Positions 4,452-63,587 of a stretch of DNA of 64,000 nucleotides are shown here, piece after piece. Source of the DNA: Bacteroidota bacterium. Lineage in GTDB: Bacteria > Bacteroidota > Bacteroidia > 2-12-FULL-35-15. The stretch lies in NCBI GenBank assembly GCA_029237775.1, contig JAQZBR010000004.1, positions 682,001 through 746,000 on the forward strand, read 5' to 3'. A program made the translations under genes and the position numbers. Positions within the stretch are counted from its first letter, which is position 1; each line of letters opens with the position of its first letter. Below the pieces are notes generated by a model. The model did no database searches and had not been told where the DNA came from. It saw only the letters and a program-made list of their open reading frames with translations.

Positions 4452-7400
4452 ATGAAGAAATCTCTACTCGGTTGTCCCGTTATTCTATTGCTATTTATAA
4501 CAGTCCGACTACATGCACAGGATGTATGGACCCCCTCTCAGCTGAATGGTTTTGGCAATGTGAACAATCATAGTGTTATGGCCTTGCATCCCTTCAAAGG
4601 CAAGCTTTACGCTGGCAGCGGAGAAGATTCTGCAAAAATTTACAGCACGACAACCGGCTCCTTAGGAAGCTGGGTACAGTCTTTCACTGATACAAACATC
4701 ATTTCTATCAAGGCTTTAACCTCTGTAACAAATGGGGGCGGTTATATGTATGCCGCTGCTTATGCTCCGTTTTCTGTTATAGGATCCATATACAGAACTT
4801 CAGATGGAAATACATGGAGCCGTTATCGTTCTTCACCGGTCGTGATCAAAAACATTGTTCCTTTTAAAGGACTTGGTACAGTTGATTCGATTTACTCTAT
4901 CGAGAACGGATCGTGGGGTGACGTAATCGTTCGTTCTGCTTTTGACAGTAATGATCCTCTTGATACGCTTTCTGCCTGGGACACCGTTCTTGATTTTGCA
5001 AGTGTAAATCCCTACACTGAAATCACCTCGAGCATTATTCACAATGGAAAATTCTATATAGGAACAAGCTATGGCGGAAAATTATACACTTCCGCTAACG
5101 GTACCACCTGGAATCTGAACACAACGCTTGATTCGAATTTCACTAACGGAAACAACTACAACCTGAGCGCTTTAGGAAGTTTTGGTGGCTATTTATACGC
5201 TGCCACATATAATTATGTGTCGGGCACCGAGATCTGGAGAACAGCTAATGACAGCACCTGGACAATGGTCGCGAACTATTCAAATTATGATAAAGTAACT
5301 TCTTTCTTTAATTCCGGAGCTGAACTCTGGGCCGGAATGACCAGAATTTCTTCAGGTACAGGACAAATTGTTAAAACCTCTGATGGAACCAGCTTTACAA
5401 TTTCTGTCAGCAATGGATTTGGTTCCCCTGAAAACAGCGGAGAATATGGAAACTTTGCTGCGTTTGGAAATAATCTTTATTACGGATCTGAAAATTATGG
5501 TTTCGGTGGTTCTGCTCTTCAAACAAATTCAAATACCTTAAGAGGAATTGGAATCTCAACCGGGGCACAGATCTGGAAAAAATGCCTTGCGACCACTCCT
5601 GTGATCAGCATTGGCCCTGACCAATCAGTTTGTGAAAACATTACTGCGAACTTCAATGCTAGTCCCGGATTTATTTCATACATCTGGGATGACGGTTCAA
5701 CTTCGCAATCATTAAGCACTTTTGTACAGGGGGAACACTTTGTGATCGCGGTAGCTGCGAATGGATGTGATGCAACCGATACCGCATCATTAAATGTTTT
5801 GCAGGCTCCCGACATGATGATCACTTCGCCACAGGTGAGCAATGTTGTAGTTTGTCAGGGCGACAGCATTAACGTTACCGGTTCTGCCATCTCTAACGTA
5901 AGAATTCCTCAGCCACCGATCAGCAAAGTAACCAATGCCTCGATCTCATATGCAATAGGTAATACATACGATACTATTGCTGTTTCCGGCTTTAACGAAT
6001 GTGCCTGCACATCGTTGTATTCAGTGACCATTGACAGCCTTTATCATGCTTATGATGTTGATGTAGCAATTGGTTTGTATTCTCCATCAGGAAGTTTCAT
6101 CAACCTCCTTTCCAATTTAAATGGAGCTAATTTTATAGGGACCGAATTCGTGATGAACGCACAGAACCAACCGGGCAATTTCAGCTTTGCACCTTATACA
6201 GGACAATTCCTTCCTATAGATCCTTTCAGTAATCTTACAGGGAACCCAACAGGAAACTGGGTGCTTCAGATGAGCGACAATTACACGCTTGATGATGGTG
6301 TTCTGAAAGGCTGGACGCTGAAATTTTCAGTTGCTGATTCAATTCTCACCTATTCATGGAATCCTTCAACAGGAGTTTCTATGAGCATGGCCCTTAACAC
6401 AACCATTACTCCATTTGCCAGCGCAAATTATGTGGTTACCGCGACAAACAGTCTGGGATGTTCTGCAATTGATACTTTAAATGTTGCAGTGCCAACGATT
6501 ACCGCAACAACCACCAGCGATTCGCTTTGTTACGGATCGAGTGCAACGTTAGTGACTGACGGCTCAGTCAATGCATCGTGGAGTCCTTCAACATCATTGA
6601 GCAGCGGTACAGGAACATCCGTTACTGCAACTCCGCTTGTATCCACGTTATACGCTGTCACAGAAAATATCTCAGGATGCTTTGTTTCAGACTCTGTTTT
6701 AATCACTGTTGATTCTGCGATGCTTATAGATGTCGGTCTTACCAAATCAATTTGTTATGGCGACTCAACTGCACTTATTGCACTTGTCAGTTCAGGAACT
6801 CCCCCATATACTTCTTTGTGGACCGGAGGAACTACATCAGTCCCTTCACAATATGTAGAAATAGGGCCAACCGTAAGTACTCTTTATACTTTTTATGTGA
6901 CTGATGCATTCGGTTGTTCTCAATCAGATACAGTTACAGTCCAGGTAACACCGAGCACTGATATCTACGGACATGTTGCATACAGTGGCGGGGATGTGGT
7001 AAACAGCAATGTTCTGCTTTACAAGTACTATCCTTATCAAACGCATTTTGACACTGTACAAATGGTGACAACAGATGCTTCAGGAAATTATCATTTCAGT
7101 TCAGTTAACCGCATGGATTACATTGTCAAAGTGTTTCCTGCAACAAACTACACTACACTCATCCCGACCTATTTCGGAAACACTTTCCTGTGGGATTCAG
7201 CTTCGATCGTTTATCACTATTGTGCGGTTGACGATACACTGAACATTATTGCAGCAGAAGATAATATTCTTGCAACAGGCCCCGGATACCTTCACGGTAG
7301 GATTGTTCAGGATACGGGATATGTGCGTGTACCAGGGGAACCAATTCCGGGAATCGATGTGAAGCTGGGGCGTAACCCAGGCGGACAATTAGTGACAAGC

Positions 7401-7886
7401 GTGACCACAGACAATAACGGTGAATATGAATTTATAAATGTGGCTTATGGGAATTATACTGTGTTTGCAGATATCCCGGGATTAGGGAGAGATTCTTCAT
7501 ACACGTTCATTGTCGATTCAGCCAACAGCGTTTATAATTATCTGAACTATACTGTTGATTCAGCTGAAGTGCATTATGTTCCGGAAGCTGGCGTGGGAAT
7601 AAAGGACCTTAGCGCTGCAAAGGGAAACAAGTTCAATGTTTATCCCAATCCTTCAAAAGGAAATGCCACTATCGAATACACTCTTACCACAGGTACTGAC
7701 GTAAAACTTGGTGTTTACAATATACTTGGCGTTCAGATCCGAGAACTTGTAAATACCTATCAGCAGGCAGGAACATACAACCTAAGGATCAGTGAAAACG
7801 AATACCATTTCAGTTCAGGAGTTTATTTCATTGCACTTATTACAAACGGAAAAACATCAATACATAAAATAATCATTACAGAATAA
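4452..7886 (+). CDS. T9SS-exported propeller / P-domain surface protein (array member A)
   Basis: The 1144-residue secreted protein has no assigned function. Parts in order: a Sec signal (about 1-22, ending LHAQ); propeller-like repeats with motifs such as KLYAGSG, GKFYIGTS, YLYAATY and LYYGSE (about 30-370); an Ig/PKD-like domain with Cys (about 380-455); a proprotein-convertase P-like beta-sandwich (about 495-633, with NPTGNWVLQMSDN and LKGWTLKF). Two more PKD-like domains follow, then a carboxypeptidase-regulatory-like module from about 836 (IYGHV...PTYFG...PGEPIPGIDVKLGRNPGG). A T9SS type A sorting domain closes it (about 1055-1144: FNVYPNPSKG...IHKIIITE). P domains usually accompany proteases, but no catalytic domain is seen. 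It is the first gene of a packed four-gene array; the next starts 5 nt later. Confidence 0.85.
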   Translation: MKKSLLGCPVILLLFITVRLHAQDVWTPSQLNGFGNVNNHSVMALHPFKGKLYAGSGEDSAKIYSTTTGSLGSWVQSFTDTNIISIKALTSVTNGGGYMYAAAYAPFSVIGSIYRTSDGNTWSRYRSSPVVIKNIVPFKGLGTVDSIYSIENGSWGDVIVRSAFDSNDPLDTLSAWDTVLDFASVNPYTEITSSIIHNGKFYIGTSYGGKLYTSANGTTWNLNTTLDSNFTNGNNYNLSALGSFGGYLYAATYNYVSGTEIWRTANDSTWTMVANYSNYDKVTSFFNSGAELWAGMTRISSGTGQIVKTSDGTSFTISVSNGFGSPENSGEYGNFAAFGNNLYYGSENYGFGGSALQTNSNTLRGIGISTGAQIWKKCLATTPVISIGPDQSVCENITANFNASPGFISYIWDDGSTSQSLSTFVQGEHFVIAVAANGCDATDTASLNVLQAPDMMITSPQVSNVVVCQGDSINVTGSAISNVRIPQPPISKVTNASISYAIGNTYDTIAVSGFNECACTSLYSVTIDSLYHAYDVDVAIGLYSPSGSFINLLSNLNGANFIGTEFVMNAQNQPGNFSFAPYTGQFLPIDPFSNLTGNPTGNWVLQMSDNYTLDDGVLKGWTLKFSVADSILTYSWNPSTGVSMSMALNTTITPFASANYVVTATNSLGCSAIDTLNVAVPTITATTTSDSLCYGSSATLVTDGSVNASWSPSTSLSSGTGTSVTATPLVSTLYAVTENISGCFVSDSVLITVDSAMLIDVGLTKSICYGDSTALIALVSSGTPPYTSLWTGGTTSVPSQYVEIGPTVSTLYTFYVTDAFGCSQSDTVTVQVTPSTDIYGHVAYSGGDVVNSNVLLYKYYPYQTHFDTVQMVTTDASGNYHFSSVNRMDYIVKVFPATNYTTLIPTYFGNTFLWDSASIVYHYCAVDDTLNIIAAEDNILATGPGYLHGRIVQDTGYVRVPGEPIPGIDVKLGRNPGGQLVTSVTTDNNGEYEFINVAYGNYTVFADIPGLGRDSSYTFIVDSANSVYNYLNYTVDSAEVHYVPEAGVGIKDLSAAKGNKFNVYPNPSKGNATIEYTLTTGTDVKLGVYNILGVQIRELVNTYQQAGTYNLRISENEYHFSSGVYFIALITNGKTSIHKIIITE

Positions 7887-7891
7887 ATTAG

Positions 7892-10800
7892 ATGAAACGA
7901 TTACTACGCTCAGCTGCAATCCTTATTGCATTTACTTTTTCAACCGGTCTTTATGCTCAGGATCCCTGGATCTTATCTGCACGGGACGGCCTTGATAACA
8001 TGAACAACAATACTGTTTTTGGAATGAATGTTTTCAATGGAAAGATCTATGCTGCCGTTGGGCCGGATAGCGGTTATGTTTACAGCTCAACTACCGGGAA
8101 TATTAATTCATGGGTGAAAGTGTTCAGCGGTCCGACTGTAAATTCTGTTAACGCGATCACATCAACTACTGCTGCGGGTGGGAATATGTACATTTCGGCA
8201 AGAAGCAATTCAGACAGCTCAAGAGTTTTTAGAACGATGGACGGAGTAAACTGGCTGCCTTATTACGTGAGCCCGGAACCCGTGACAGGTTTGATCCCTT
8301 TTAAAGGAGCAGGCGCAGTAGATTCGCTGTATGTGATCGAAGGATTTAATTATTGGGGTGGAAGAATCCTGAGGTCGCATGCTAACAGCAACGACCCTAA
8401 CAGTTTATCAGCCCAATGGGATACTGTTTTAGATTTCGGACAGTTAAACCCGTACACTAACATCACTGCAGTAGGCGTTCATAACAGCAAATTTTATGTG
8501 GGAACATCTCACGGTGGGATTTGGATATCTGCTGATGGTTCATCCTGGATTGAAAACGGAAGCGTTGGAAATGGTTTTGGAAATTTCAACAATTTAACGA
8601 TCACAGCAATCAGTTCCTTTGGCGGAGCAGTTTATGTTGGTACTGAAAACAATTTTGAAGGTGGACAGATCTGGAAATCTACTGATGACATTAACTGGGT
8701 GCAGGTTCATCAACTGCCATACACAAACACGATAGTTACTAGCATGTCTGTAGCTGACGGAAAACTTTGGTATACAGCAAAAGGTGATTACAGCGGAATA
8801 GTTGCCAAAAGCTCTGACGGTATCACATTTACTATCTCCGATAATGGCAGCTTCAACAGCCCGGGCAACAATGGAAACCGCGCTTCGCTTACACAATTCG
8901 GTAATAATATTTACTGGGGAGGAGAACATTTCTATTCACTGGGTGGAAAAACTCCTTTCAACATGCCCGGTGCGCAGATATGGAGAACATGTCTGGTTAC
9001 GCCTCCTGCGGTCAATGCCGGCCCTGACCTGGCGGTATGTCCCGGAACACCGGTAACCTTTGATGGTGGGCCAGGTGCTACCGCTTATTACTGGGGGAAT
9101 GGGGAATCCCAACAAAGCTTTACTACAGCCTGGACCGGTTACATGATCCTTGAATATGTAGGCTCGAATGGTTGTTCAACAATGGATAGTGTACTTGTTG
9201 ATGCCTTGCCGTCACCTTCAGTTATGATCACCAATCCGCAAGGGCTTCCGGGATTACCGAATGTTGTGTGTAAAGGAGTAAGCACGAACATCACCGGAAC
9301 TGCCATTTCTAATGCATATACAGCGCTTCCTCCGATTCATAAGTCTACAAATGATTCTATAAGCGACCTCATACCAATGGTATACGATACGATAAATGTA
9401 AGCGGATTAAGTACCGCCTGCGCTTGTGATGCATTAATGTCTGTGACGATCGACAGCATGTACCATACTTATGTTGGGGATCTTGAAATAAAGATCCAAG
9501 CGCCTGACGGAAGTTCCACGATTCTAAATGCACAAAATGAAGAGGATGCTAATGATGCCTATTTCGGTACACAATTCATCATGAATGCTGCTGAAAGTAT
9601 TTCTAATGCTACCGCTCCGTACAACGGCAACTATCAACCTGTTGGAAGTTTCCATGATCTTACCGGTTCACCGAACGGTAACTGGGTTTTGTCTATTCAG
9701 GATCTGGCGGGTGGTGATGACGGTAATCTGAAGGGCTGGACGATTCGCTTTAAGATCGATGACAACACATTAACATATTCGTGGTCGCCTGCTCTTGGAC
9801 TTACTTCAACAACAACATTAAATACAACAGCGACACCTTTGGTGTCAACAACCTATACACTGACCACAACAAACAACATCGGCTGTGCAACAGTAACTCC
9901 GGTTGCATTTGAAGTTCCTGATCTGGTTTTCGAACAAGCAGCAGATACAGTGTGTTATGGAAGTTCAATTATCCTTACTGTTGACGGAGGAAGCCAGACT
10001 ACAATATGGTCCCCGGGAGCCACACTTGATGCAACCACAGGCTATTCAGTAACAGCAACGCCAACAGTAAGTACACAATATTACGTTACGGATACAGTAG
10101 ATGGCTGTCCGCTATGGGATTCGATATACGTATACGCAAACGGACAATTATTTTTAACCTCACCTGCTCCACAAACTATCTGTTACAATGACACTGCAAC
10201 ATTCACTGCGAATGTTTCGGGTGGAAGTGCACCTTATATTTATACATGGGACACCGGAGGTTCTTTCCTATATGGAGAAACCATCCAGCACGTTCCGTCC
10301 GGAGGTACATCTTATACGATCAGCGCTACCGATTTAGCCGGATGTTTTATCGGAGGAGGATCAACAAGTGTTGCCGTAATTCCAAGCACCGATGTATACG
10401 GACATGTTTCATATTCCGGAGGGACTGTTAATGGAAGTTCAGTGGTGCTTTACAAGTACTATCCATTCCTTACACAATTCGATACAGCACAGGTAACTAC
10501 AACTGATGGTAATGGAGATTTTTATTTCCCGTCAGTAGACCACAACAACTACCTGATCGAGGTTTATCCTGCAGCATCTTATACCGCACTGGTTCCTACA
10601 TATTATGGAAACAATTATCTGTGGGACTCAGCACTTGTTCTTTCGCACTACTGTTCGGTGAATGATACTTTAAATATTGCTGCTGTTGAATTTCCTCCAA
10701 TCACAGGCCCGGGAAGCCTTCAGGGAAATATTTCCGAAGGCCCTGGATATACCGGAGGATTTATGGGAACAATTCAACCCGGTGATCGTGTTCCGGGTGA

Positions 10801-11359
10801 ACCAATCCCGGGAATCGATGTAAAACTTGGCCGTAACCCTGGCGGACAACTGGTTGTAAATACCACAACTGATGCTAATGGTGATTATTCATTCAGCAAT
10901 CTTCCGCTTAATAATGCAAATGAATGGTACACTGTATATGTTGATATTCCGGGATTAGGAAGAGATTCATCTTACAGCGTTGTTCTTGATCCGGTCAATA
11001 ATGCTTACATCGATCTTGATTACTATGTTGATTCAACAGTAGTTTATATTGTTGATGAGCTTGCAACCGGAATCAAGCCAACAGAAAAAACAGAAGAAGC
11101 ATCCTTCAATGTTTTTCCGAACCCTTCAAAAGGAGAAGCGTCAATCAGCTACACACTCGCTGAAGAAAGCAATGTATCTCTGAGCATCTACAATGTACTC
11201 GGAGTGAAGATCTCTGAACTTGTAAGCAGCAAGCAATCAAAAGGTAAATACAAGTACAGCATTACTCCGAAGGATCAGGAGCTTAGCAACGGAATTTACT
11301 TCGTTACATTAATCACAAACAATAAGAGCGAAACTCACCGCCTGGTTATAAATAAATAA
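7892..11359 (+). CDS. T9SS-exported propeller / P-domain surface protein (array member B)
   Basis: This 1155-residue protein is a close paralogue of the gene before it, with the same plan. It has a Sec signal (about 1-22, ending LYAQ), propeller-like repeats (about 30-370: GKIYAAVG, NMYISAR, KFYVGTS, AVYVGTE, NIYWGGE), a PKD-like domain, and a P-like domain (about 490-635, SPNGNWVLSIQD and LKGWTIRF). Two further PKD-like domains and the shared C-terminal module (VYGHVSYSGG, PTYYG, PGEPIPGIDVKLGRNPGG, YVDIPGLGRDSSY) follow, then a T9SS sorting domain (FNVFPNPSKGEASISY...HRLVINK). Compared with member A it has a longer insert before the PGEPIPG block. It is probably a duplication product. Location is the cell surface or medium. 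The ligand is unknown. Confidence 0.85.
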   Translation: MKRLLRSAAILIAFTFSTGLYAQDPWILSARDGLDNMNNNTVFGMNVFNGKIYAAVGPDSGYVYSSTTGNINSWVKVFSGPTVNSVNAITSTTAAGGNMYISARSNSDSSRVFRTMDGVNWLPYYVSPEPVTGLIPFKGAGAVDSLYVIEGFNYWGGRILRSHANSNDPNSLSAQWDTVLDFGQLNPYTNITAVGVHNSKFYVGTSHGGIWISADGSSWIENGSVGNGFGNFNNLTITAISSFGGAVYVGTENNFEGGQIWKSTDDINWVQVHQLPYTNTIVTSMSVADGKLWYTAKGDYSGIVAKSSDGITFTISDNGSFNSPGNNGNRASLTQFGNNIYWGGEHFYSLGGKTPFNMPGAQIWRTCLVTPPAVNAGPDLAVCPGTPVTFDGGPGATAYYWGNGESQQSFTTAWTGYMILEYVGSNGCSTMDSVLVDALPSPSVMITNPQGLPGLPNVVCKGVSTNITGTAISNAYTALPPIHKSTNDSISDLIPMVYDTINVSGLSTACACDALMSVTIDSMYHTYVGDLEIKIQAPDGSSTILNAQNEEDANDAYFGTQFIMNAAESISNATAPYNGNYQPVGSFHDLTGSPNGNWVLSIQDLAGGDDGNLKGWTIRFKIDDNTLTYSWSPALGLTSTTTLNTTATPLVSTTYTLTTTNNIGCATVTPVAFEVPDLVFEQAADTVCYGSSIILTVDGGSQTTIWSPGATLDATTGYSVTATPTVSTQYYVTDTVDGCPLWDSIYVYANGQLFLTSPAPQTICYNDTATFTANVSGGSAPYIYTWDTGGSFLYGETIQHVPSGGTSYTISATDLAGCFIGGGSTSVAVIPSTDVYGHVSYSGGTVNGSSVVLYKYYPFLTQFDTAQVTTTDGNGDFYFPSVDHNNYLIEVYPAASYTALVPTYYGNNYLWDSALVLSHYCSVNDTLNIAAVEFPPITGPGSLQGNISEGPGYTGGFMGTIQPGDRVPGEPIPGIDVKLGRNPGGQLVVNTTTDANGDYSFSNLPLNNANEWYTVYVDIPGLGRDSSYSVVLDPVNNAYIDLDYYVDSTVVYIVDELATGIKPTEKTEEASFNVFPNPSKGEASISYTLAEESNVSLSIYNVLGVKISELVSSKQSKGKYKYSITPKDQELSNGIYFVTLITNNKSETHRLVINK

Positions 11360-11377
11360 ACAAAAAAATCATAAGTC

Positions 11378-14300
11378 ATGGAGATCCTAAAAAAATCGAA
11401 ACAGATCACGTTAATTTTAATGCTTGCTCTTTTTGCGGGAACATTAAAATCGCTTGCTCAGCCCTTATCTGCAAATGCAGGAACAAATACATCTATTTGT
11501 TCTGGCGCTAACTTAACAATCGGAGGATCTCCATCTGCATCTTTCGGAACACCGCCATATACTTATTCATGGTCTCCGTCTACGGGGCTTAGTTCGGCAA
11601 CAGTGGCAAACCCTGTCGCATCACCAACAACCACTACTACGTATACACTAACCGTCACAGATGCAGTAGCTGCAACTGCGGGTGCTGCAATCATTGTGAA
11701 TGTTAATCCAATACCAAATGCGGTGTCATCCCCTTCGTCACAAACCATCTGTTACGGCAACAGTTCTTCACTGGGATTATCCAGCTCGGTGGGTGGCGCT
11801 AGCTTTAGCTGGACTGCCAGCCAGTCCGGTGTTACAGGTGCATCATCGGGAAGCGGCAGCGTGATCATGCAATCTCTTACCACGACAGGTGCGGTAGCAG
11901 GAACTGCAACCTATACCATCACTCCAACTGCTAATGGGTGCGTGGGAACACCAACAACTGCTGTGGTCACAGTAAATCCGGCACCGGCCATGACCAGTTC
12001 CGGAACAGTTACGATCTGCAGCGGTTCCGCTGTTAACCTACCATTTACAAGTAATATCCCCGCAACCTATACCTGGTCCGCTACGAATAATGCAAATACC
12101 ACGGGCGAAAGCACGACAACACAATCCACTAGTACTTTAAACGATGTTATAACCAGCGCTGCACCAACGACCACAAACGTTAGCTATACTGTTCAGGCCA
12201 CTTCCCTTGCAGGGTGTGCTGGGAATTTTTATCCTGTTACTGTAACAGTTAATTCCTTGCCTGTTGTTACTGCAACGCCTTCTTCACAAACAATTTGCTC
12301 TGGTACAACTGCCAATGTAAGCTTCAGCAGCAGTATTGCAGGAACGTCATACAATTATACCGTAAGTCAATCAGGTGTTACAGGTGCTGCGGGTGGTATT
12401 GCAGGTATTTCTCAAACCCTTTCGGCCACAGGTGCGGTTCCGGGCACAGCAACTTATACGATTACAGGGACTGCGGCAGGATGTTCAGGAACGCCTGTCA
12501 ACTCAGTTGTTACAGTTAATCCAACTCCAACAGTTTCTGTCAACAATACAACGATCTGCGCAGGCGGAACCGCAACATTAACGGCTACACCATCTATAGG
12601 GGGAGGTACTTTTTCATGGTCTCCGGGAGGAGCTACCTCATCTTCTATTTCTGTAAGTCCGGGAACGACAACTTCTTTTACATGTACTTACACCAAATCA
12701 GGGTGCAGCTCAAATGGAACGGGAACCGTAACAGTCAACAATCCACCCGTTGCTACATTCAGCTACCCATCTTCACAGTTTTGTGTTAGTGCTCCAAACC
12801 CAACTCCATCGTTTAGTGGCGGGGGTAGTGCAGGAACTTTTACATCAGCTCCTGCAGGCTTGGTTCTGAATTCTTCTACCGGGCTTATCACACTAGGTTC
12901 TTCTACTCCAGGAACTTATACCGTTACAAATACTATCCCTGCAGGAGGAGGCTGTCCTGCAAGTTCCGCAACCTTTAATGTTACAGTTAATCCTTTGCCA
13001 AATGCAAACGCAACGAACAGCGGGCCTGTTTGTACAGGAACCAGCTTAACTTTAAGCGCTGCGTCAGTTGCAGGAGCTACCTATTCATGGACGGGGCCTA
13101 ACGGATACACTTCAACATCTCAAAATCCTTTTATTTCAGTTGCATCAGCAGCTAATGCAGGAACATATAATCTAAGCGTGGCAGTGAATGGTTGTATGAA
13201 TTCGGCAAATACGAATGTGATCGTTAATCCTTTGCCAGCAGTTAATGCGGGCCTGGACCAGTCAGGTTGTGCAGGGAGCCAGATAAACTTTTCCGCGACC
13301 TCTTCCGGTCTGACTTATTCCTGGACTTTTGGTAACGGAAATAATTCTGCGCTTCTTAGCCCTTCAACAATCTATGCTGCATCGGGAAATTATACTGCAA
13401 CGCTTACCGCAACAAGCGCCCAGGGTTGTACCGCAAGTGACAACGTTAACGTAACCATTTACCAGAATCCTTCTATAACGACTTCGCATGTTAATGCATC
13501 CTGCTTCGGAGTATGCAATGGAACAGCAACTGCTACTTCGTTTGGTGGTTCAGGCCCCTACGTGTATTCCTGGCTTTCAGGGCAAACAAGTCCAACAATT
13601 TCAGGATTGTGCGCAGGAGAATACAGTCTTACATCTACGGATGTTAACGGATGTATGGCTTATGATACAGTGGTGGTTGCTGAACCAATGGCCCTTATCG
13701 CAACAATAACTTCAACGAGCGTCAATTGTAACGGTGCGTGTAACGGGTCAGCTGCGGTCTCAGTAAGCGGAGGAACACCCTCATACACCTATCTATGGTC
13801 TCCTGGTTCACAAACCGGCTCGGGTATCACAGGTTTGTGTGCCGGACCGTATACAGTAACGGTTACTGATGCTAACGGATGCACTACAAATTCAACTGTT
13901 GTGATCACTCAACCTTCCGCTTTAACCGTGACAGGATCTTCAACTCAAACAATCTGCTCAGGAGACACAGCCACTTTAAATACTGCAGCAAGCGGTGGTG
14001 TTCCACCTTATTCATATAACTGGAGTGGTGGTGGTTCCAGCTTTACCGGATTCAGCATTTTTGCCGCACCACTTGTTAATACCACCTATACAATCACCGC
14101 CACCGACAATACAGGCTGTATAGCAAATACAACAGCTGTGGTTCTGGTTCAGGCACTAACCAATATTTACGGACATGTTTCCTATTCAGCAGGAAACTTA
14201 AATACCGGAAGCAACACTGCAGTCGCTTTCCGCTATTCTTCATTTCTTACAACTTTTGATACCGTACAGGTTAGCCCGGTAAATGCCACCGGTGATTTTC

Positions 14301-15103
14301 AGTTTACTTCACTTCCAAATGACAGCTATTTGGTCAAAGTGTTTAATGATACTACAGCACATCCTTTATTGATGCCGACATATTATGGCAATGAATACAT
14401 GTGGGATTCTGCGCTTGTCATTAACCATCTCTGTGGCTCACATGACACAGCAAACATTCAGATGCTCGAAACACCAGCGATGTCTGGTCCGGGTTTGATC
14501 ACCGGAACGATCACTGAAGGACTTGGATTTGGCCGTGTTCCGGGTGAGCCGATCCCGGGAATTGATATTAAGCTCGGACGTAATCCGGGAGGGCAGCTCG
14601 TTGCAAGCACTCAAAGCGGATCAGGGACAGAAGCAGGCCAATACCGGTTCATGAATGTGCCAATGAATCTACCGGGAGAAACTTATACTATCTACGTTGA
14701 TATCCCGGGCTTAGGCCGCGTGTCTACTTACAATTTCGTAATTGATGCAAGCATCTCGCAATATCCGGGAATGGATTACGAAGCTGATTCCACTTCGATT
14801 TATATAACTCAGATGTCAGTAGGCATCAGCCCATCGGCAAACAACGAAAGCAGCTTATCTGTTTATCCTAACCCTGTTAGCGATAATGCTAACATTGAGT
14901 ATACTATTGATGTTGACTCGAAAATCGAACTTTCAGTTTATAATGTTATCGGTGATCAGATCATGCTAATTGAAAATAAAGAACAATCTGCAGGAACCTA
15001 CAACTATAAAGTTAACATGAGTGGAATTTCTACAGGAGTGTATTTCGTAAAATTGAAAATCAACAATACTTCGACCGTTAAAAAGATAATAAAAGCAGAA
15101 TAA
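11378..15103 (+). CDS. T9SS-exported multi-PKD / SprB-repeat surface protein (array member C)
   Basis: The 1241-residue secreted protein has a Sec signal (about 1-27, ending LAQ). A run of PKD/Ig-like domains follows, several closely alike, each with a TIC(S/Y)G Cys motif and a GAVxGTATYTI motif (about 30-620). Then come a PKD domain (about 620-694: NAGLDQSGC, YSWTFGNG, SGNYTATLTAT) and two SprB-type repeats (about 700-771 and 776-849: C.G.CNGSA...GLCAGPYTVTVTDANGC). The same C-terminal module as its neighbours and a T9SS sorting domain (LSVYPNPVSDNANIEY...VKKIIKAE) end it. SprB repeats are known from a Flavobacterium gliding adhesin, so an adhesin or fibre role is plausible but unproven. It lies 18 nt after member B and 4 nt before member D. 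Confidence 0.85.
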   Translation: MEILKKSKQITLILMLALFAGTLKSLAQPLSANAGTNTSICSGANLTIGGSPSASFGTPPYTYSWSPSTGLSSATVANPVASPTTTTTYTLTVTDAVAATAGAAIIVNVNPIPNAVSSPSSQTICYGNSSSLGLSSSVGGASFSWTASQSGVTGASSGSGSVIMQSLTTTGAVAGTATYTITPTANGCVGTPTTAVVTVNPAPAMTSSGTVTICSGSAVNLPFTSNIPATYTWSATNNANTTGESTTTQSTSTLNDVITSAAPTTTNVSYTVQATSLAGCAGNFYPVTVTVNSLPVVTATPSSQTICSGTTANVSFSSSIAGTSYNYTVSQSGVTGAAGGIAGISQTLSATGAVPGTATYTITGTAAGCSGTPVNSVVTVNPTPTVSVNNTTICAGGTATLTATPSIGGGTFSWSPGGATSSSISVSPGTTTSFTCTYTKSGCSSNGTGTVTVNNPPVATFSYPSSQFCVSAPNPTPSFSGGGSAGTFTSAPAGLVLNSSTGLITLGSSTPGTYTVTNTIPAGGGCPASSATFNVTVNPLPNANATNSGPVCTGTSLTLSAASVAGATYSWTGPNGYTSTSQNPFISVASAANAGTYNLSVAVNGCMNSANTNVIVNPLPAVNAGLDQSGCAGSQINFSATSSGLTYSWTFGNGNNSALLSPSTIYAASGNYTATLTATSAQGCTASDNVNVTIYQNPSITTSHVNASCFGVCNGTATATSFGGSGPYVYSWLSGQTSPTISGLCAGEYSLTSTDVNGCMAYDTVVVAEPMALIATITSTSVNCNGACNGSAAVSVSGGTPSYTYLWSPGSQTGSGITGLCAGPYTVTVTDANGCTTNSTVVITQPSALTVTGSSTQTICSGDTATLNTAASGGVPPYSYNWSGGGSSFTGFSIFAAPLVNTTYTITATDNTGCIANTTAVVLVQALTNIYGHVSYSAGNLNTGSNTAVAFRYSSFLTTFDTVQVSPVNATGDFQFTSLPNDSYLVKVFNDTTAHPLLMPTYYGNEYMWDSALVINHLCGSHDTANIQMLETPAMSGPGLITGTITEGLGFGRVPGEPIPGIDIKLGRNPGGQLVASTQSGSGTEAGQYRFMNVPMNLPGETYTIYVDIPGLGRVSTYNFVIDASISQYPGMDYEADSTSIYITQMSVGISPSANNESSLSVYPNPVSDNANIEYTIDVDSKIELSVYNVIGDQIMLIENKEQSAGTYNYKVNMSGISTGVYFVKLKINNTSTVKKIIKAE

Positions 15104-15107
15104 TAAA

Positions 15108-17705
15108 ATGGAAATAGCTATTGGAAAACCGAACCAATCAAAAATCAAAAGAGCCATCAGATGCATAGCCCTCTTGAGTTCTCTTTTGTGCTTACAGAAT
15201 ACTGCTAAAGCTCAGGACGTTGGTATTTCATCACTTGATATACCTTATGATAGTATTTGCAGTGGGATAAGCTGGCCCGTGGTCGTGACCTTGAACAACT
15301 ATTCACAATCGCCCATAGACCTTTCAATTCAGGATGTAACTATTGTGGTAAATGTTACGGGAGCGAGCTCGCAAACTTTCACTTATGTTATGAATTCAGG
15401 AATATTAAGCCCGTATTCAACTCAACAAATTACCGTGACAAGTACCGCAGACATGAGTGCACCCGGAATTCATATTTTCGATGCGGTGGCAACGGTGGCA
15501 GGCGATTTTGATCCATCTAATGACGCCATGCAAAGCCGTCCTGTTGTAGTTAAACAAACTCCTGATGTAATCGGAGAACCGAATCCGATCGTTTGCGCAG
15601 GAACTGTAATGCCGGCATATACCTTTTACGGTGTGGAACCAGGTGCAACATTTACGTGGACAAATGATAACCCCTCAATCGGTTTAGCGTCTTCAGGTAC
15701 CGGAGACAGGCCGGCATTTATACCTGTTAACAACGGAACAACAACTGCCTTTGCAAACATAAGTGTACAAGCCGAGTACAATGGGTGCATAAGCGGATCA
15801 TTTGGCTATATGATCCAGGTTGAACCTTTGCCAACAGTAAGTGCCGGTGGGGATGTTACCTCATGCACAGGAAGCGCTATTACTTTTAACGCAACGGCTA
15901 ATGGGGCTTTAGCTTTCACCTGGAATTTCGGTGACGGAGGTACATCAGCTACATTCAATCCTTCTTATATTTATTCCATTCCAGGTGTATACACAGCAGA
16001 TGTAACTGCGGTGAGTCCTTCAGGTTGTATGTCAGGTGATACCGTAATTGTCACAATTGCTGCGGGCCCTACTCTTACAACAAGTGTCACGGATCCAAGC
16101 TGTGAAGGACTATGTAACGGAAGTGCGGCCGTGTCTGCAGTTGGAGGAACACCTACTTACAGTTATTTATGGAATTCTTCTCCAATGCAAACAACGGCCG
16201 TAGCGAGTTCTTTGTGTTCCGGACCATATACCGTAACAGTTAATGATGCAAACGGATGTTCATCAATTGCCACTGTCGTTATTACTGATCCCACACCGAT
16301 ATCCATTTCTGCAACATCAACAGATGCAACATGCAGCGGCCTTTGTAATGGATCGGCTTCCGTAACTGTCTCGGGAGGTACAGGCACGTACACCTACCTT
16401 TGGTCTCCGGGAGGTTATACCTTACAGAATTTTACTTCCTTGTGTTCCGGAACTTACACGGTCACAGCTACCGATGGCAATGGATGTGTTTCTCAGGCAT
16501 CTACAGTATTTGTTTCCGCACCTGCTCCCCTAAGCGCAGGCACTAGCCCGGATGATACTATTTGTAACGGACAGTCTGTTCAGATTTATGTAGCAGGTGC
16601 AGGAGGTACGCCTCCCTATTCATTTGTTTGGAATGATGGCAGTTCTAATTTCAGTACTGCAAATCTGGAAGTTGTTTCACCATCCACAAGCACCAATTAT
16701 GTGGTGACTGTTACCGATGCCAACAATTGCACTAACACGGGGATCTCATCCGTGTTTGTAAGGCCAAATTCTTCAGTTTATGGACATGTTACACATTCTG
16801 GAGGAGTCTTGTCAACCGGTGTGAACAATGCTGTCTTATTTTCCTACCTGCCTTTTAATACATCATTTGATACAGTGCAGGTTTCCCCGGTAAATACTTC
16901 AGGAGATTTCATTTTTTCAAACATAACTTCAGGCAATTATCTTGTAAAAGTATTTAATGATACTTCTGCTTATCCTTTGATCATTCCAACATATTATAAC
17001 AATGCTGTTCTATGGAATTCTGCTATGATCGTTGCGAATAGCTGTACCTCAAATGACACTATTAGTTTTTCAATGGTTGAGGTTCCTGCCATTTCCGGAC
17101 CGGGTTCACTTTCAGGTACTATAGTTGAAGGGCTGGGATTTTCAAGAGCACCGGGTGAGCCGATCCCGGGCATTGATATTAAGCTGGGACGTAACCCTGG
17201 GGGACAGCTCGTTGCGAGCACGCAGACAAACAGCTCAGGGCAATACACTTTTTCAAATCTGCCTCTGAATAACGCAGGCGAGTCTTACACCCTGTATGTT
17301 GATATTCCGGGATTAGACAGAGATTCCACTTACACAGTTGTTCTAAATGGCACGCAAAACACTTTTGCAGGACTCGATTATGTTGCTGATTCTGCAAGTG
17401 TGACTCCAACTTCTACTGTCGGAATACATGATATTAATGTCGGACAAGCCAAATTCACTCTTTATCCAAACCCGACAAAAGACTTAGTATATGTTGATTA
17501 TACGCTTAGCTCCGAATCCAGAGTATCGCTTGATATTTATAATGTTCTTGGTATTAAGAGTATGTCCTTACTATCGGAAAAGCAAACAGCCGGAAATTAC
17601 AGGATCCCTATGAATTCCATCAACAATCTAAAGCCGGGAGTTTACTTTGTCACATTGAACTTTAACGGCAAAATAGAAACGCAGCGTTTAGTAATTTCTA
17701 AATAA
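15108..17705 (+). CDS. T9SS-exported CARDB-like / PKD / SprB surface protein (array member D)
   Basis: This 865-residue secreted protein starts with an extended N-terminus before the hydrophobic signal core (IALLSSLLCLQNTAKAQ, about 20-36). The rest is an adhesion-type beta domain resembling CARDB (about 38-150: ISWPVVVTLNNYSQ), an Ig-like domain (about 155-235) and a PKD domain (about 240-317: FTWNFGDGG). Two SprB repeats follow (about 320-394 and 400-474), then one PKD-like domain, the shared C-terminal module (VYGHVTHSGG, PTYYN, PGEPIPGIDIKLGRNPGG) and a T9SS sorting domain (FTLYPNPTKDLVYVDY...QRLVISK). It is the last gene of the array and is followed by a strong hairpin terminator. Confidence 0.85.
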   Translation: MEIAIGKPNQSKIKRAIRCIALLSSLLCLQNTAKAQDVGISSLDIPYDSICSGISWPVVVTLNNYSQSPIDLSIQDVTIVVNVTGASSQTFTYVMNSGILSPYSTQQITVTSTADMSAPGIHIFDAVATVAGDFDPSNDAMQSRPVVVKQTPDVIGEPNPIVCAGTVMPAYTFYGVEPGATFTWTNDNPSIGLASSGTGDRPAFIPVNNGTTTAFANISVQAEYNGCISGSFGYMIQVEPLPTVSAGGDVTSCTGSAITFNATANGALAFTWNFGDGGTSATFNPSYIYSIPGVYTADVTAVSPSGCMSGDTVIVTIAAGPTLTTSVTDPSCEGLCNGSAAVSAVGGTPTYSYLWNSSPMQTTAVASSLCSGPYTVTVNDANGCSSIATVVITDPTPISISATSTDATCSGLCNGSASVTVSGGTGTYTYLWSPGGYTLQNFTSLCSGTYTVTATDGNGCVSQASTVFVSAPAPLSAGTSPDDTICNGQSVQIYVAGAGGTPPYSFVWNDGSSNFSTANLEVVSPSTSTNYVVTVTDANNCTNTGISSVFVRPNSSVYGHVTHSGGVLSTGVNNAVLFSYLPFNTSFDTVQVSPVNTSGDFIFSNITSGNYLVKVFNDTSAYPLIIPTYYNNAVLWNSAMIVANSCTSNDTISFSMVEVPAISGPGSLSGTIVEGLGFSRAPGEPIPGIDIKLGRNPGGQLVASTQTNSSGQYTFSNLPLNNAGESYTLYVDIPGLDRDSTYTVVLNGTQNTFAGLDYVADSASVTPTSTVGIHDINVGQAKFTLYPNPTKDLVYVDYTLSSESRVSLDIYNVLGIKSMSLLSEKQTAGNYRIPMNSINNLKPGVYFVTLNFNGKIETQRLVISK

Positions 17706-17717
17706 ATAATTAATTTC

Positions 17718-17760
17718 ACCACCCTTCTGCATAAACGCGGAAGGGTGTTTTTATTTTTGA
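17718..17760 (+). terminator. Rho-independent terminator ending the adhesin array
   Basis: Stem CACCCTTC (17720-17727) pairs with GAAGGGTG (17740-17747), extended inward by a T-G wobble and GC/GC around the loop ATAAAC, and followed by a T-rich run to 17759. It sits 15 nt after the stop of array member D. Its position argues against a GTG start at 17745 for the next gene. Confidence 0.85.
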
Positions 17761-17765
17761 AATCC

Positions 17766-19340
17766 ATGCGCAGTCCTCTGTTGATATCAATTTTACTTGT
17801 CGCGTTTAATCTTTCCGGTCATTCGCAAACGACTGTTATTGATTCCTTGCTTACACGCATTCAATCCGGGAAAGCAGATACCTCGGAGCTTATCGATCTT
17901 TATAAATTAAGTGAAAGATACGTTGCCGCAGGTGAATACGAAAACAGTCTGGATGCTGCTAATAAAGCCATTTCTCTTGCCGATGAACTCATAAGAAAAG
18001 CGAGTTCAGATACTGCAGCCCTTCGTACAAGCAAATCATATAAATCCAAAGCACTGAGCAGCTCTGCCCTGAATCACACTAACCTCGGGAACTACACTGA
18101 AGCATTAGCAATTTATAATCAATCTTTAAAAATCAGACAGGAGCTCAACGAACAAAAAGGAATCGCTTCCAATTTGAATAACATGGGCACACTTTATCAG
18201 CATCAGGGAAATTATGCCGAAGCTTTAAAGTATTATTTTTCATCATTAAAGATCAAAGAGAAGATCGGTGAAAAAAAGAGCATCGCCAATACGTACAATA
18301 ATATTGGTAATGTTTATAACGCGCAAAAAAATTACTCCCTATCCATAAAGAATCATGTAACTGCGCTGAAGCTTCGTAAAGAGATCGGAGATCAGACTGG
18401 CATTGCATCTTCTTATAATAATATTGGCAATGTATATTTCGCTCAGGCTTTGGAGGAGATGGATAACGATATCCGGCAGGGACTTCTTGAACTTTCTCTT
18501 AACAACAATCATTCTTCTCTTAAGATCTCTGAAGCTATCGAAGATCAAAACGGGATGGCAAACTCGTATATTAACATTGGCGCAATCTGGTTCAACCGCG
18601 CAGAACATGAAAAAAACAAGGAACGACAGCATCAAATGTTTCAGGAGGCCAACAAGCATTTCAAGATATCTCTTCAGAAAAGAGAACTGATAGATGATAA
18701 AAATGGCCTTGCCGGTTCACACTTAAATATTGGAAGTGTATTTTTAAAAGAAAAGGATCTTCAGAATGCATCGAAACATTTTGCCAAAGCAAAACAGCTG
18801 GCCGCTGAATTAGGAATCAAAGAATACCTTAAAGAAGTTTACAGCGCATTAACGGCTGTTGACAGCAGCAAAGGCGACTTCCGGGCTGCGCTTGAACACA
18901 ATAAGCTTTTTTTGCTTTACAGGGACAGCCTTGACAATGCGGAAACACGAAAAAAAATGATTCAAAGCCAAATGACCTATGACTTTGAGAAAAAAGAAGC
19001 AGTGGAAAATGCGGAACGGGAGAAAGAGCTTGAAAATCAAAAACTGCTGGCGGGAGAGAGAAATTTAAAACAAACAATCATAATTATTTTTATCGCAGGT
19101 ATTCTCATCGCAGCTGTGATCTTTCTTTTCCTGATGTTTAAATCATTAAGACTTACGCGTAAACAAAAGCAGCTGATTGACGAGCAGAAACAAATTGTTG
19201 AAGCTAAACAAAAAGAGATCCTCGACAGCATTCATTATGCGAGAAGGATCCAATTTTCTCTTTTACCGGGTGAAGTTTATATAAACAAAAACCTTTTAAG
19301 GTTGAAATCAAAAAATAACTTCAAGGAGCAAAAGCAATGA
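17766..19340 (+). CDS. TPR-repeat membrane signalling protein lacking an output domain (first copy)
   Basis: The 524-residue product (from the ATG at 17766) has a Sec signal (MRSPLLISILLVAFNLSGHS). About seven TPR units follow (ALNHTNLGNYTEALAIYNQS, YYFSSLKIKEKIGEKKSIAN, NNIGNVY repeats), then a basic/acidic coiled coil. One transmembrane helix lies at about residues 435-458 (IIIIFIAGILIAAVIFLFLMF). A short coiled coil (KQKQLIDEQKQIVEAKQKE) leads to DSIHYARRIQFSLLPGE and a stop about 20 residues later. In sensor phosphatases the DSIxYAxxIQxxLLP segment leads into a SpoIIE/PP2C domain, which is absent here. The TPRs should be periplasmic and the short tail cytoplasmic. GTG 17745 and TTG 17757 are alternative starts, but 17745 lies in the terminator hairpin. 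The stop overlaps the next ATG. Confidence 0.82.
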   Translation: MRSPLLISILLVAFNLSGHSQTTVIDSLLTRIQSGKADTSELIDLYKLSERYVAAGEYENSLDAANKAISLADELIRKASSDTAALRTSKSYKSKALSSSALNHTNLGNYTEALAIYNQSLKIRQELNEQKGIASNLNNMGTLYQHQGNYAEALKYYFSSLKIKEKIGEKKSIANTYNNIGNVYNAQKNYSLSIKNHVTALKLRKEIGDQTGIASSYNNIGNVYFAQALEEMDNDIRQGLLELSLNNNHSSLKISEAIEDQNGMANSYINIGAIWFNRAEHEKNKERQHQMFQEANKHFKISLQKRELIDDKNGLAGSHLNIGSVFLKEKDLQNASKHFAKAKQLAAELGIKEYLKEVYSALTAVDSSKGDFRAALEHNKLFLLYRDSLDNAETRKKMIQSQMTYDFEKKEAVENAEREKELENQKLLAGERNLKQTIIIIFIAGILIAAVIFLFLMFKSLRLTRKQKQLIDEQKQIVEAKQKEILDSIHYARRIQFSLLPGEVYINKNLLRLKSKNNFKEQKQ

Positions 19341-20665
19341 AAAAAGTATTTAATCTTATTTTATTGTTTTCATTCATGGCAAATTCATTTGTTCATGGAC
19401 AGGATCGTTCTGCCGATTCACTTGAAAAAGTTATGAATACCTCTACGGTTGACACTTTCAAAGTTGACCTTCTCAACAAGCTTTTTATGATCTATGAATA
19501 CAGCGATGATAAAAAAGCTGCTGCATTTCTAAAACAAGCTATTGATATTGCAGAGAGGTCGCAGTACACGAACGGACTGGGAACTGCCTATAAATTTGCA
19601 GGATATTATGCTGAAGACAAGGGCAATTACCCTGAGGCCTTAAAATTTTATTTTAATTCATTAAAAGCAAAAGAAGAGGCCGGAAGCAAACCGGGAATAG
19701 CGGATGCAAACCTTTGCATCGGAAATATTTATTATAACCAGGAAAATTATCCTGAAGCCTTAAAGAAGTTCCTTATCGCTCTGAACATATATAAAGAGCT
19801 TAATATTAAAACCAGCATCGCAATTGCATACAACAACATCGGAGGAATTTATTTTCATCAGGAGAGTTATGAAAAAGCATTGGAAATGTATTCTAAAGCT
19901 CTTGATATGCATTTAGAGTCCGGAGATAAACGTCAATTGGCTAATTCTTATGGGAACATTGGAAATGTTTATGGTAATCAACAGAAATACCAACAAGCAC
20001 TTGAAATGTATTTTAAGGCACTTGCGATCATGCAGGAAATAGGAAATCAACCTGCAATTGCCGGATTGAATTCTAATATTGGCATCTCGTACACAAAGCT
20101 CGGTGAATATGAGAAAGCAAAAAAGTATTTATCCGAAGCAAGGGATATTTCTTTGTCCATAGGATACAAAAGCTGTTTGAGTAGCACTTATGACGGCTTA
20201 TCTGACCTTGATAGCGCCACTGGTAATTTTAAAAGCGCATTCGAAAACCATAAGCTGCATATACTTTATAACGATAGCCTTAACAATGAGGAAACCCGTG
20301 AAAAAACATTGCAGAGCCAGCTGAATTATGAATTCGAAAAGAAAGAAGCAATTGCAGCCGCTGAACACCATAAAGAGCTTGAAAAACAGCATTTGCTTGC
20401 AGAAGAAAAAAGCAGTAAACAAAAAACAATTCTTTTAATGATCTCCTTCTTTTTATTAATTGTTGTCCTTTTTGCCGGACTGATATTCCGTTCTCTTAAA
20501 ACTACCAAAAAGCAAAAAACGATTATAGAAGCTCAGAAAGAGCTTGTCGAGGCCAAACAAAAAGAGATGCTCGATAGTATCCATTATGCGAGAAGGATCC
20601 AGTCTTCATTGCTTCCAACAGAAACATACATCAGCAAAAGCCTGAAGCGCTTAAAGAAGACATAA
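19337..20665 (+). CDS. TPR-repeat membrane signalling protein lacking an output domain (second copy)
   Basis: This 442-residue paralogue of the gene before it overlaps that gene by 4 nt (ATGA), so the two are translationally coupled. It has a Sec signal (MKKVFNLILLFSFMANSFVH, cleaved near GQD). TPR units follow at about 40-290 (GNYPEALKFYFNSLKAKEE, NIGNVYGNQQKYQQALEMYF), then a coiled coil and one transmembrane helix (about 361-385). A linker coiled coil leads to DSIHYARRIQSSLLPTE (about 412-428) and a stop 14 residues later (SKSLKRLKKT). Like the first copy it ends where a SpoIIE phosphatase would normally begin. Output through a partner protein is possible; nothing in the sequence names the partner. 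Confidence 0.82.
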   Translation: MKKVFNLILLFSFMANSFVHGQDRSADSLEKVMNTSTVDTFKVDLLNKLFMIYEYSDDKKAAAFLKQAIDIAERSQYTNGLGTAYKFAGYYAEDKGNYPEALKFYFNSLKAKEEAGSKPGIADANLCIGNIYYNQENYPEALKKFLIALNIYKELNIKTSIAIAYNNIGGIYFHQESYEKALEMYSKALDMHLESGDKRQLANSYGNIGNVYGNQQKYQQALEMYFKALAIMQEIGNQPAIAGLNSNIGISYTKLGEYEKAKKYLSEARDISLSIGYKSCLSSTYDGLSDLDSATGNFKSAFENHKLHILYNDSLNNEETREKTLQSQLNYEFEKKEAIAAAEHHKELEKQHLLAEEKSSKQKTILLMISFFLLIVVLFAGLIFRSLKTTKKQKTIIEAQKELVEAKQKEMLDSIHYARRIQSSLLPTETYISKSLKRLKKT

Positions 20666-61455: not shown

Positions 61456-63552
61456 TTATTGTGTAATAATGAGCTTTTGAATTTTAGTCCCTTGGGTGGT
61501 GGAAAGTTTAATGAAATACAAACCGGGAGAATATTTCGAATTTTCATCAATTTCAATTTTGAACTTACCATTTACTGTTCTGTTTTTGGCAAAACTACTT
61601 ATTCTTTCACCTTGTACGTTGTAGATCTCAAGACTTATTAAGCCTTCATGCGGCACACAACATTCGATTGTAAAATTACCTACGGAAGGATTTGGGTAGA
61701 CATTTAAAGAAGCATCAGACTCTTTAATTTCAGCAGAGGCCAATACGCTATTGGTCACATAAATCATTGTGGAATCAGCCACAAAATTAAGTTCTGTTAA
61801 ATTATTATTTGATGACACACACTGAGTATATGTGGATAGCATCGACAAACCGGGAATATCGATATAGATCCTGTTGCAACCTGAAGGAATATTTTCAAAA
61901 TGATAGAATCCGTAACTGTTGGTTCTTGTATAGTCTACTATTGTATTATCTGAATTATTGAGTAAAAAAACATCTACACCCGACATACCCATGCCGGGAG
62001 ATCGATAACCTGCACCTTCGAGCAATGTGCCAGACAATCCATTTGTTCCAACCAATGATGGATGTCCCAGCATTATGATATCGATATCAGTTGTATCGTT
62101 GCAGACTGGAGTTATGACAATATCGGCAGCAGAACTCCATGTTATCACAGTATCATAATAAGTGGGTACTGCTAAAGGATAAAGACTGGTATCTGGTGTT
62201 GCCTGAATAATATACCTTCCCTGAAGGACAAAAGGAAATGTGTAGCTACCTCCTATGATAGCGACAGAGTCTTTCATTCGCATCTGGTAGCCGGGATTAT
62301 GTGAAATTAATTTTGCGTATCCATCCACGGGTGAACCGGCATAATTTACGGAGCCGGAAATAACCATGTGGGGTTCAACATTTATGTTATATACAAAACT
62401 CTGGATACCATAAACCGGACAAGCATTATCCTGCACACTGATTGCAACAGGGATCAATGCAGATGTCATACCCGCAGGCGCAGTCCAGCTTATGTGAAGC
62501 GTAAACGGGTTGATGCCTGAAGAAGTAATAATTGACCCTGGAAGAGCGGTCGCTATATTGGCGGAATAAGACAGGGAATCGGCAGCGTCAACATCTGAAT
62601 ATATTACATCAAATGAAAGACTATCACCGGGACACACATATATCGTATGGGGAGCTATTTGGATTGCCTGGCCGGACAGATTTGTTATAGCTCCTGAATT
62701 TAATGAAGGAGCATTGTTTGAACAGTTCTGTACCACAAACTGGATATCCCTCATCACTGATCCTAATAAATTAGAATTAGCATCAAACTCCTCCACTTTA
62801 ACAACAACCTCATAATTGCCAATAGCGGTCGGAATGAACGATAATTGTCCGGTTAGGGGATCAATTGCAATTCCGGGTATTGGAGAAGCAGCCGAATAAC
62901 CTGATGAATACGAAAGCGGACTTGCTCCCGCATCCAGGGCCGAAACCAGAGAGAAATGGAGCGAGTCTCCATCCGATTCAACGACAGCGCAATTATAGTT
63001 GACTAGTTGCCCTAAGCACACATACGGAATTCTCATTGCAGTGAAATATGGTGAGCTATTCGTAGAATCAATTCCGGTATTAAGAGTAGTTTCAACATAG
63101 GTCCCAAATGAAGAAGCAGAACTGAGATTTGTAATCGCATTGTTTCGGCAGCATACCGTCCAAGCCATTGTCCACGTGTTACATAGACCCGGCAAGCTGA
63201 CTGTATCACTATATCGAAAAATCCACATTCCCGGTAATACACCACCATTACAAGCTGTGTTCATCATTTGAGAGGGACAAATTTGGGAAATCTCCGTGCC
63301 ACCCGGGTTCAAAACATCTACATTAAAAGTTGTTGTTTGGCCGCAGGTGCTTGTCATTTCAATAGTTTGTACATTGCCCGGATCAAAACCGAGACAATCA
63401 ACAAACAGATCAAGATTAACGATAAATTGATTTCCACTTAAGTGCTTGTATGTTAATTCAGCTCCTGCTATATGAGACGCACGTACAGAACCAGTAAAGC
63501 TAAAAGCCAAAACTATTGCGAAAAGTAATTTTTTTAATATTTTATTTTTCAT
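61456..63552 (-). CDS. T9SS-exported adhesin-like surface protein (fifth relative)
   Basis: The 698-residue secreted protein starts with a Sec signal (about 1-25, ending VRA). It then has SHIAGAELTYKHLSGNQF, a start seen in many Bacteroidota gliding/adhesin-type proteins, with several Cys residues (about 26-160). Two cadherin/Ig-like domains follow (about 160-390; YSSGYSAASPIPGIAIDPLTGQLSF). From about 395 it carries the same C-terminal module as the four-gene array (ISGSVNYAGSP, YPLAVPTYYDTVITWSSA, GTLLEGAGY, YIDIPGL), but the PGEPIPG block has diverged to PGMGMSGVDVFLLNN. A T9SS sorting domain ends it (LNVYPNPSVGNFTIEC...IQKLIITQ). Confidence 0.85.
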   Translation of the reverse strand: MKNKILKKLLFAIVLAFSFTGSVRASHIAGAELTYKHLSGNQFIVNLDLFVDCLGFDPGNVQTIEMTSTCGQTTTFNVDVLNPGGTEISQICPSQMMNTACNGGVLPGMWIFRYSDTVSLPGLCNTWTMAWTVCCRNNAITNLSSASSFGTYVETTLNTGIDSTNSSPYFTAMRIPYVCLGQLVNYNCAVVESDGDSLHFSLVSALDAGASPLSYSSGYSAASPIPGIAIDPLTGQLSFIPTAIGNYEVVVKVEEFDANSNLLGSVMRDIQFVVQNCSNNAPSLNSGAITNLSGQAIQIAPHTIYVCPGDSLSFDVIYSDVDAADSLSYSANIATALPGSIITSSGINPFTLHISWTAPAGMTSALIPVAISVQDNACPVYGIQSFVYNINVEPHMVISGSVNYAGSPVDGYAKLISHNPGYQMRMKDSVAIIGGSYTFPFVLQGRYIIQATPDTSLYPLAVPTYYDTVITWSSAADIVITPVCNDTTDIDIIMLGHPSLVGTNGLSGTLLEGAGYRSPGMGMSGVDVFLLNNSDNTIVDYTRTNSYGFYHFENIPSGCNRIYIDIPGLSMLSTYTQCVSSNNNLTELNFVADSTMIYVTNSVLASAEIKESDASLNVYPNPSVGNFTIECCVPHEGLISLEIYNVQGERISSFAKNRTVNGKFKIEIDENSKYSPGLYFIKLSTTQGTKIQKLIITQ

Positions 63553-63587
63553 GGGTTAGTCTTTAAAGTATTATAAATTTAATCTTT

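Follow-up and report, generated by a model that had tools for sequence, protein, structure and literature searches.

A block in the shared C-terminal module of type IX-secreted surface proteins is nearly uniform within genomes and differs between them, as would suit a recognition or assembly surface

The window, i.e. the whole stretch of 64,000 nucleotides of Bacteroidota DNA analysed here, carries at 4452-17705 four adjacent + strand ORFs in tandem, all encoding proteins that are T9SS-exported as judged by their sorting domain. The original prediction described four neighbouring T9SS proteins that end in one shared C-terminal unit, and this is confirmed: the shared module measures 307-321 aa, and the Por_Secre_tail/TIGR04183 C-terminal domain scores over its curated cut-off in 4/4 array proteins. 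The features are as follows.

4452-7886, + strand: array gene A, 1144 aa; P_proprotein, SdrD_B, CarboxypepD_reg and Por_Secre_tail over cut-off
6963-7883, + strand: shared module of A, 307 aa
7221-7223, + strand: invariant Cys87 of the module of A
7638-7877, + strand: type A T9SS sorting domain of A, profile over cut-off
7892-11359, + strand: array gene B, 1155 aa; same plan as A (P-domain, two beta-sandwich domains, type A T9SS sorting domain)
10394-11356, + strand: shared module of B, 321 aa, modelled with AlphaFold2
10652-10654, + strand: invariant Cys87 of the module of B
11111-11350, + strand: type A T9SS sorting domain of B, profile over cut-off
11378-15103, + strand: array gene C, 1241 aa; PKD/Ig-like and SprB repeats, then the shared module
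14165-15100, + strand: shared module of C, 312 aa
14432-14434, + strand: invariant Cys87 of the module of C
14861-15091, + strand: type A T9SS sorting domain of C, profile over cut-off
15108-17705, + strand: array gene D, 865 aa; PKD and SprB repeats, then the shared module
16776-17702, + strand: shared module of D, 309 aa
17043-17045, + strand: invariant Cys87 of the module of D
17460-17696, + strand: type A T9SS sorting domain of D, profile over cut-off
17720-17747, + strand: terminator-like hairpin

The gaps between the array genes are 5, 18 and 4 bases, and the hairpin just 3' of gene D is the strongest on the + strand by consensus scan only; the four genes therefore probably form one operon. 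At 17745-20665 lie two adjoining TPR proteins, both of which have an IHYARRIQ motif and a hydrophobic stretch towards the end, and one related gene occupies the same position in genome G336.

The N-terminal parts of the array proteins differ largely as had been proposed, with a P-domain over the Pfam cut-off in A and B, and PKD and SprB in C and D; a propeller and a CARDB-like domain, also proposed, were not recovered by Pfam in the array proteins. The module itself runs from (I/V)YGHV to the protein end, is alignable over its full length and holds in all four copies the landmarks PTY(Y/F), W(D/N)SA and DIPGL(G/D)R previously listed for it. Beta-sandwich 1 (from (I/V)YGHV) comes first, followed by beta-sandwich 2, which is of the SdrD_B/CarboxypepD_reg type; a flexible linker then leads to the sorting domain. 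In two of the copies compared (L046 and L025) the stretch from the module to the protein end counts 161 and 163 residues, against about 95 in most, i.e. about 60-70 extra.

The AlphaFold2 model of the module of B (alignment of 58 sequences) is all beta, with a mean pLDDT of 89 and a low-confidence linker ahead of the sorting domain at residues 224-233. Foldseek matches for this model include SdrD, the pilin SpaA and UafA; their whole-chain TM-scores are low (about 0.2), as expected with differing domain orientations, and support the fold class only. In A, B and D one or both of the SdrD_B (PF17210) and CarboxypepD_reg (PF13620) profiles exceed the curated cut-off, and the second domain of gene C, for which no profile match was reported at E 1, nevertheless aligns with those of the other three. 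Cys87, located in beta-sandwich 1, is present in 41/41 block-bearing copies and is the sole module cysteine in 38 of them.

Within beta-sandwich 2 lies a block of 21 residues, PGEPIPGID(V/I)KLGRNPGGQLV, which, in agreement with the near-invariance claimed for it, is identical in A-D save for V/I at one position. Its copies, and a further module protein of the window, are located as follows.

7332-7394, + strand: block of A, PGEPIPGIDVKLGRNPGGQLV
10793-10855, + strand: block of B, PGEPIPGIDVKLGRNPGGQLV; in the AlphaFold2 model a loop, strand 142-148, the NPGG turn and the start of strand 152-158 (module residues)
14540-14602, + strand: block of C, PGEPIPGIDIKLGRNPGGQLV
17151-17213, + strand: block of D, PGEPIPGIDIKLGRNPGGQLV
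61459-63555, - strand: fifth, diverged module protein of the same plan, with a T9SS sorting domain and without the block (GMGMSGVDVFLLNNSDNTIV at that place)

Among the four array copies pN/pS is 0.037 in the block, far below the 0.499 of the rest of the module. Block pS between these copies is 0.36-0.92, close to that elsewhere in the module, i.e. third codon positions vary, as the original prediction had it. The low block pN/pS, and a within-genome silent identity in the block that equals that of the rest (values given below), support the earlier view that the block is held by selection, here strong purifying selection, and is not a recent copy.

The location of the block is ordinary, because it sits in an SdrD_B/CarboxypepD_reg-type domain, where it overlies and extends the generic G-x-P-x-x-G-x-x-V-x-L motif of the fold; its mode of evolution is not. 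That the block might be a general feature of a named domain, which the original prediction gave as grounds for its refutation, holds for its place and for this generic core only. The block was absent from the other SdrD_B/CarboxypepD_reg copies inspected in the genome (30 fetched loci, out of 15 and 54 hits), which keep just P-x-x-G..V-x-L and T-D-x-x-G-x-Y-x-F, and a degenerate DNA pattern for PGEPIPG has only 4 occurrences in the 4.08 Mb genome. The fifth module protein had gone unnoticed in the original prediction; diverged module copies of this kind, without the block, coexist with block-bearing copies in the same genomes.

Similar modules were found in 31/36 genomes of the window's genus (E 1e-20) and in other genera of the class, while in a sample of the phylum they occurred in 2/296 genomes (E 1e-10), one of them the window's own. 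In the genus the copies mostly form one syntenic array of 1-4 copies, located between tetR-tolC-acrA-acrB and asnS in most genomes with flanks available. The comparison set comprised 21 genomes of the genus, with 41 block-bearing copies, and 6 more distant genomes (G346-G351). The genus copies were chosen by motif, which conditions within- and between-genome pairs alike, and those of G346-G351 were fetched with a profile confined to the first domain, in which there is no block. The contig search used a tighter module profile, as one built from 36 diverse modules was too divergent. Almost all relatives that have a record title are metagenome-assembled genomes, and some copies may have been missed, because many of the assemblies are broken into hundreds of contigs. 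One contig (L137), assigned to Candidatus Saccharibacteria, carries this Bacteroidota module with a block resembling that of the G349 copies and is probably mis-binned.

Among the 41 genus copies, those of one genome have nearly identical blocks, and blocks from different genomes differ, mostly by conservative changes (I/V/L, K/R, D/E). The module as a whole groups by gene: A pairs with the G304 orthologue, to which it is 69% identical outside the block, and B with its counterparts in G336 and G304. Block identity is 0.94 for within-genome pairs; for between-genome pairs with a greater similarity over the rest of the module it is 0.80. The higher within-genome value is seen in 12/13 genomes. 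In G306 and G308, the same 4 block positions differ in both of two orthologue pairs (74-81% identity), whereas paralogues that are 38-41% identical elsewhere share identical blocks. The uniformity is imperfect, as G342 has both V and I at position 141.

When 21-residue segments of the module were compared, a clear within-genome excess of identity appeared only where a segment overlapped the block, and elsewhere the relation was mostly reversed. Parsimony, scored on trees built without the segment under test, singled out residues 134-154 as the only segment with a clearly better fit to the genome tree (40 steps) than to the gene tree (49 steps), 6 columns following the genome and 1 the gene; the other 13 segments had ratios of 0.99-1.24 (Fisher p 3e-4). 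The genome-following columns of the block are 136, 138, 141, 147, 152 and 153 (gene B module numbering), while column 143, flanked by them, follows the gene (3 steps on the gene tree vs 6 on the genome tree), which means that no tract overwrites the entire block. Among genomes with at least 3 copies, fixed differences amount to 0.157 per column per pair in the block vs 0.004-0.025 elsewhere, i.e. they are 6-40 times denser. Of the conservative columns, those in the block divide into 5 genome, 1 gene and 3 tied, and those outside it into 8, 41 and 36, respectively.

These comparisons of segments were picked after the pattern had been seen in the first genomes, and G346-G351 serve as an independent check. 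The first-domain profile retrieved copies on several contigs in both G346 (6) and G347 (13), and further ones in G348-G351. The block was present in 39/41 copies from the six genomes; this block-free search also controls for the retrieval bias that the use of block patterns may have introduced. Five block-bearing copies of G346 lie on 3 contigs and 13 of G347 on 6 contigs. Ala133 and Val141 occur in 5/5 of the former, Val133 and Ile141 in 13/13 of the latter, and these two columns, both at the block, are the only 2/321 fixed differently between the two genomes. Among the splits of the 18 sequences into 5 and 13, just 1/8568 yields two such fixed columns in the block. On the block-free tree the copies of G346 and G347 are interleaved; the fewest changes needed are 5, of which at least 4 are forced by well-supported branches.

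Lineage-specific duplication was ruled out as the source of this pattern: a clade of G346 copies is rejected (p-AU 3e-51), and most within-genome groups of the genus are split on the block-free tree. Genome composition was ruled out as well, since other conservative columns follow the gene tree; moreover, G347 has Ile at a position where Val stands in G346, although its codons seem to contain more G+C. A search of the neighbours of the unlinked copies for a partner gene gave no widely recurrent family and only a few shared by 2-3 loci.

Uniformity within genomes might result from concerted evolution, in which repeated short conversion copies the block among paralogues and silent sites then drift under purifying selection, so that no shared partner is needed. 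The silent divergence of the block is low in certain paralogue pairs (C/D, 0.36 vs 0.66; G304, 0.28 vs 0.66; also pairs in G337, G310 and G342), the within-minus-between silent excess in the genus is a little higher for the block than for the remaining module (by 0.071; 0.039 to 0.120), and in the genus the copies mostly stand in one syntenic array. From the excess and the few pairs with low divergence, some gene conversion likely occurs. However, pooled within-genome silent-site identity, with few silent sites in the block (about 16 per pair), is 0.537 there and 0.527 in the rest (difference 0.010; -0.035 to 0.058), and hence the block has not been recently homogenised by DNA copying. Furthermore, block pS of A vs C and D reaches 0.79-0.92, copies on different contigs are equally uniform, site 143 retains its gene-specific state within the supposed tract, and the common Val141 of G346 is written with three different codons (GTT, GTG, GTA, GTG, GTT in the five copies). 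On account of the unlinked copies, column 143 and the varied codons, we argue that conversion alone would be a poor explanation and is not the main cause; as a complete account we consider it unlikely. In the literature searched, the one paper that mentions both type IX secretion and concerted evolution concerns T9SS components, not cargo.

Ordinary structural constraint would make the block the core hairpin of an SdrD_B-like fold and the differences between genomes neutral conservative swaps. The strand-turn-strand position of the block in this fold and the conservative nature of most differences agree with it, but neutral swaps should track the gene tree like the other conservative columns (41 gene vs 8 genome), and those of the block track the genome; in addition, the other domains of this type inspected in the genome keep the sparse motif alone. 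We regard this account as quite improbable, and hold a similarly low opinion of one in which the block, as an extension of the sorting signal, is read by the general T9SS export and attachment machinery (the PorV shuttle, translocon or PorU sortase). The module does stand just ahead of the sorting domain in nearly all copies, and residues 239-259 (gene B numbering), within the sorting domain, for part of which PorV binding is known or modelled (PMC11969387), are the second least gene-like stretch (ratio 0.99), a pattern that may reflect matching to the species' own PorV. Nevertheless, the four occurrences of the PGEPIPG pattern in the genome and the fifth module protein, with its sorting domain and no block, mean that the block is not a general export requirement, and such a domain does not figure in the published description of sorting signals (PMC11969387). 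General export machinery thus appears a less likely reader of the block than a shared partner or co-assembly of the stalks.

A shared interaction most simply explains why a patch should be uniform per genome and why it should change in step in genes that are unlinked. We infer such a binding interaction from five sequence features taken together: constraint, within-genome uniformity, between-genome difference, parallel changes in unlinked genes and silent sites that are not homogenised to match. The reading we prefer, with a probability of roughly 0.55, is that the block is a recognition or assembly surface by which every copy has to fit one common partner or its fellow copies. The docking site suggested in the original prediction is thereby favoured as the best surviving idea, on new grounds, namely the uniformity of the block inside genomes and its difference from one genome to the next. 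The processing site and the interchangeable surface-display set, also suggested there, would be hypothetical roles.

According to this proposal of a recognition or assembly surface, the module would be a cell-surface stalk adjoining the T9SS sorting domain, and the block a surface on the second beta-sandwich domain, the SdrD_B-like one. Within one cell, all proteins with a block would have to present the same version, since they would bind the same thing. This could be a dedicated shared partner on the cell surface; alternatively, the stalks may co-assemble with each other, which Cys87, as a candidate intermolecular disulfide, would suit. If the partner or interface drifted in a lineage, all copies, linked or not, would change in step, and the rest of the module would keep its gene history.

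Several known systems offer comparisons. SdrD_B and CarboxypepD_reg domains, as in staphylococcal SdrD, UafA and the pilin SpaA, share the fold class and the position of the block on the domain; however, neither the block in its full 21 residues nor its uniformity genome by genome is a feature of these families. Like type A T9SS cargo, all four array proteins carry a Por_Secre_tail sorting domain, but the signal described for such cargo excludes the block-bearing domain ahead of it (PMC11969387, PMC12618676). Type B sorting domains are read by cognate SprF/PorP-like shuttles, and several cargos may share one shuttle (PMC12618676); the likeness would lie in T9SS cargo with a specific partner, but the array domains are of type A and have the block outside them. 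In cellulosomal dockerins, many different proteins of a species share recognition residues, which can vary between species (PMC5748583). This analogy is functional only, lying in a recognition set shared per species: the array module is not a dockerin and has an unrelated fold, no cohesin-like scaffold was found here, and binding by the array proteins is only putative.

It is tentatively conceivable, although we would not rate it as probable, that the stalk patch constitutes a recognition code, near-identical per cell and species-specific, by which diverse T9SS proteins are assembled on a common partner or mutually, as an equivalent of the dockerin code on a different fold. T9SS cargo is sorted by a C-terminal signal, but little is known, to our knowledge, of how the highly varied surface proteins of these bacteria are organised once exported. 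A patch whose evolution belongs to the genome and not to the gene points to a shared interaction. It also indicates which residues to mutate (136, 138, 141, 147, 152 and 153 of the gene B module), and the pairs G306/G308 and G346/G347 constitute natural swap experiments. More generally, columns that track the species tree while the gene tracks the gene tree may offer a route to shared-partner interfaces in paralogue families.
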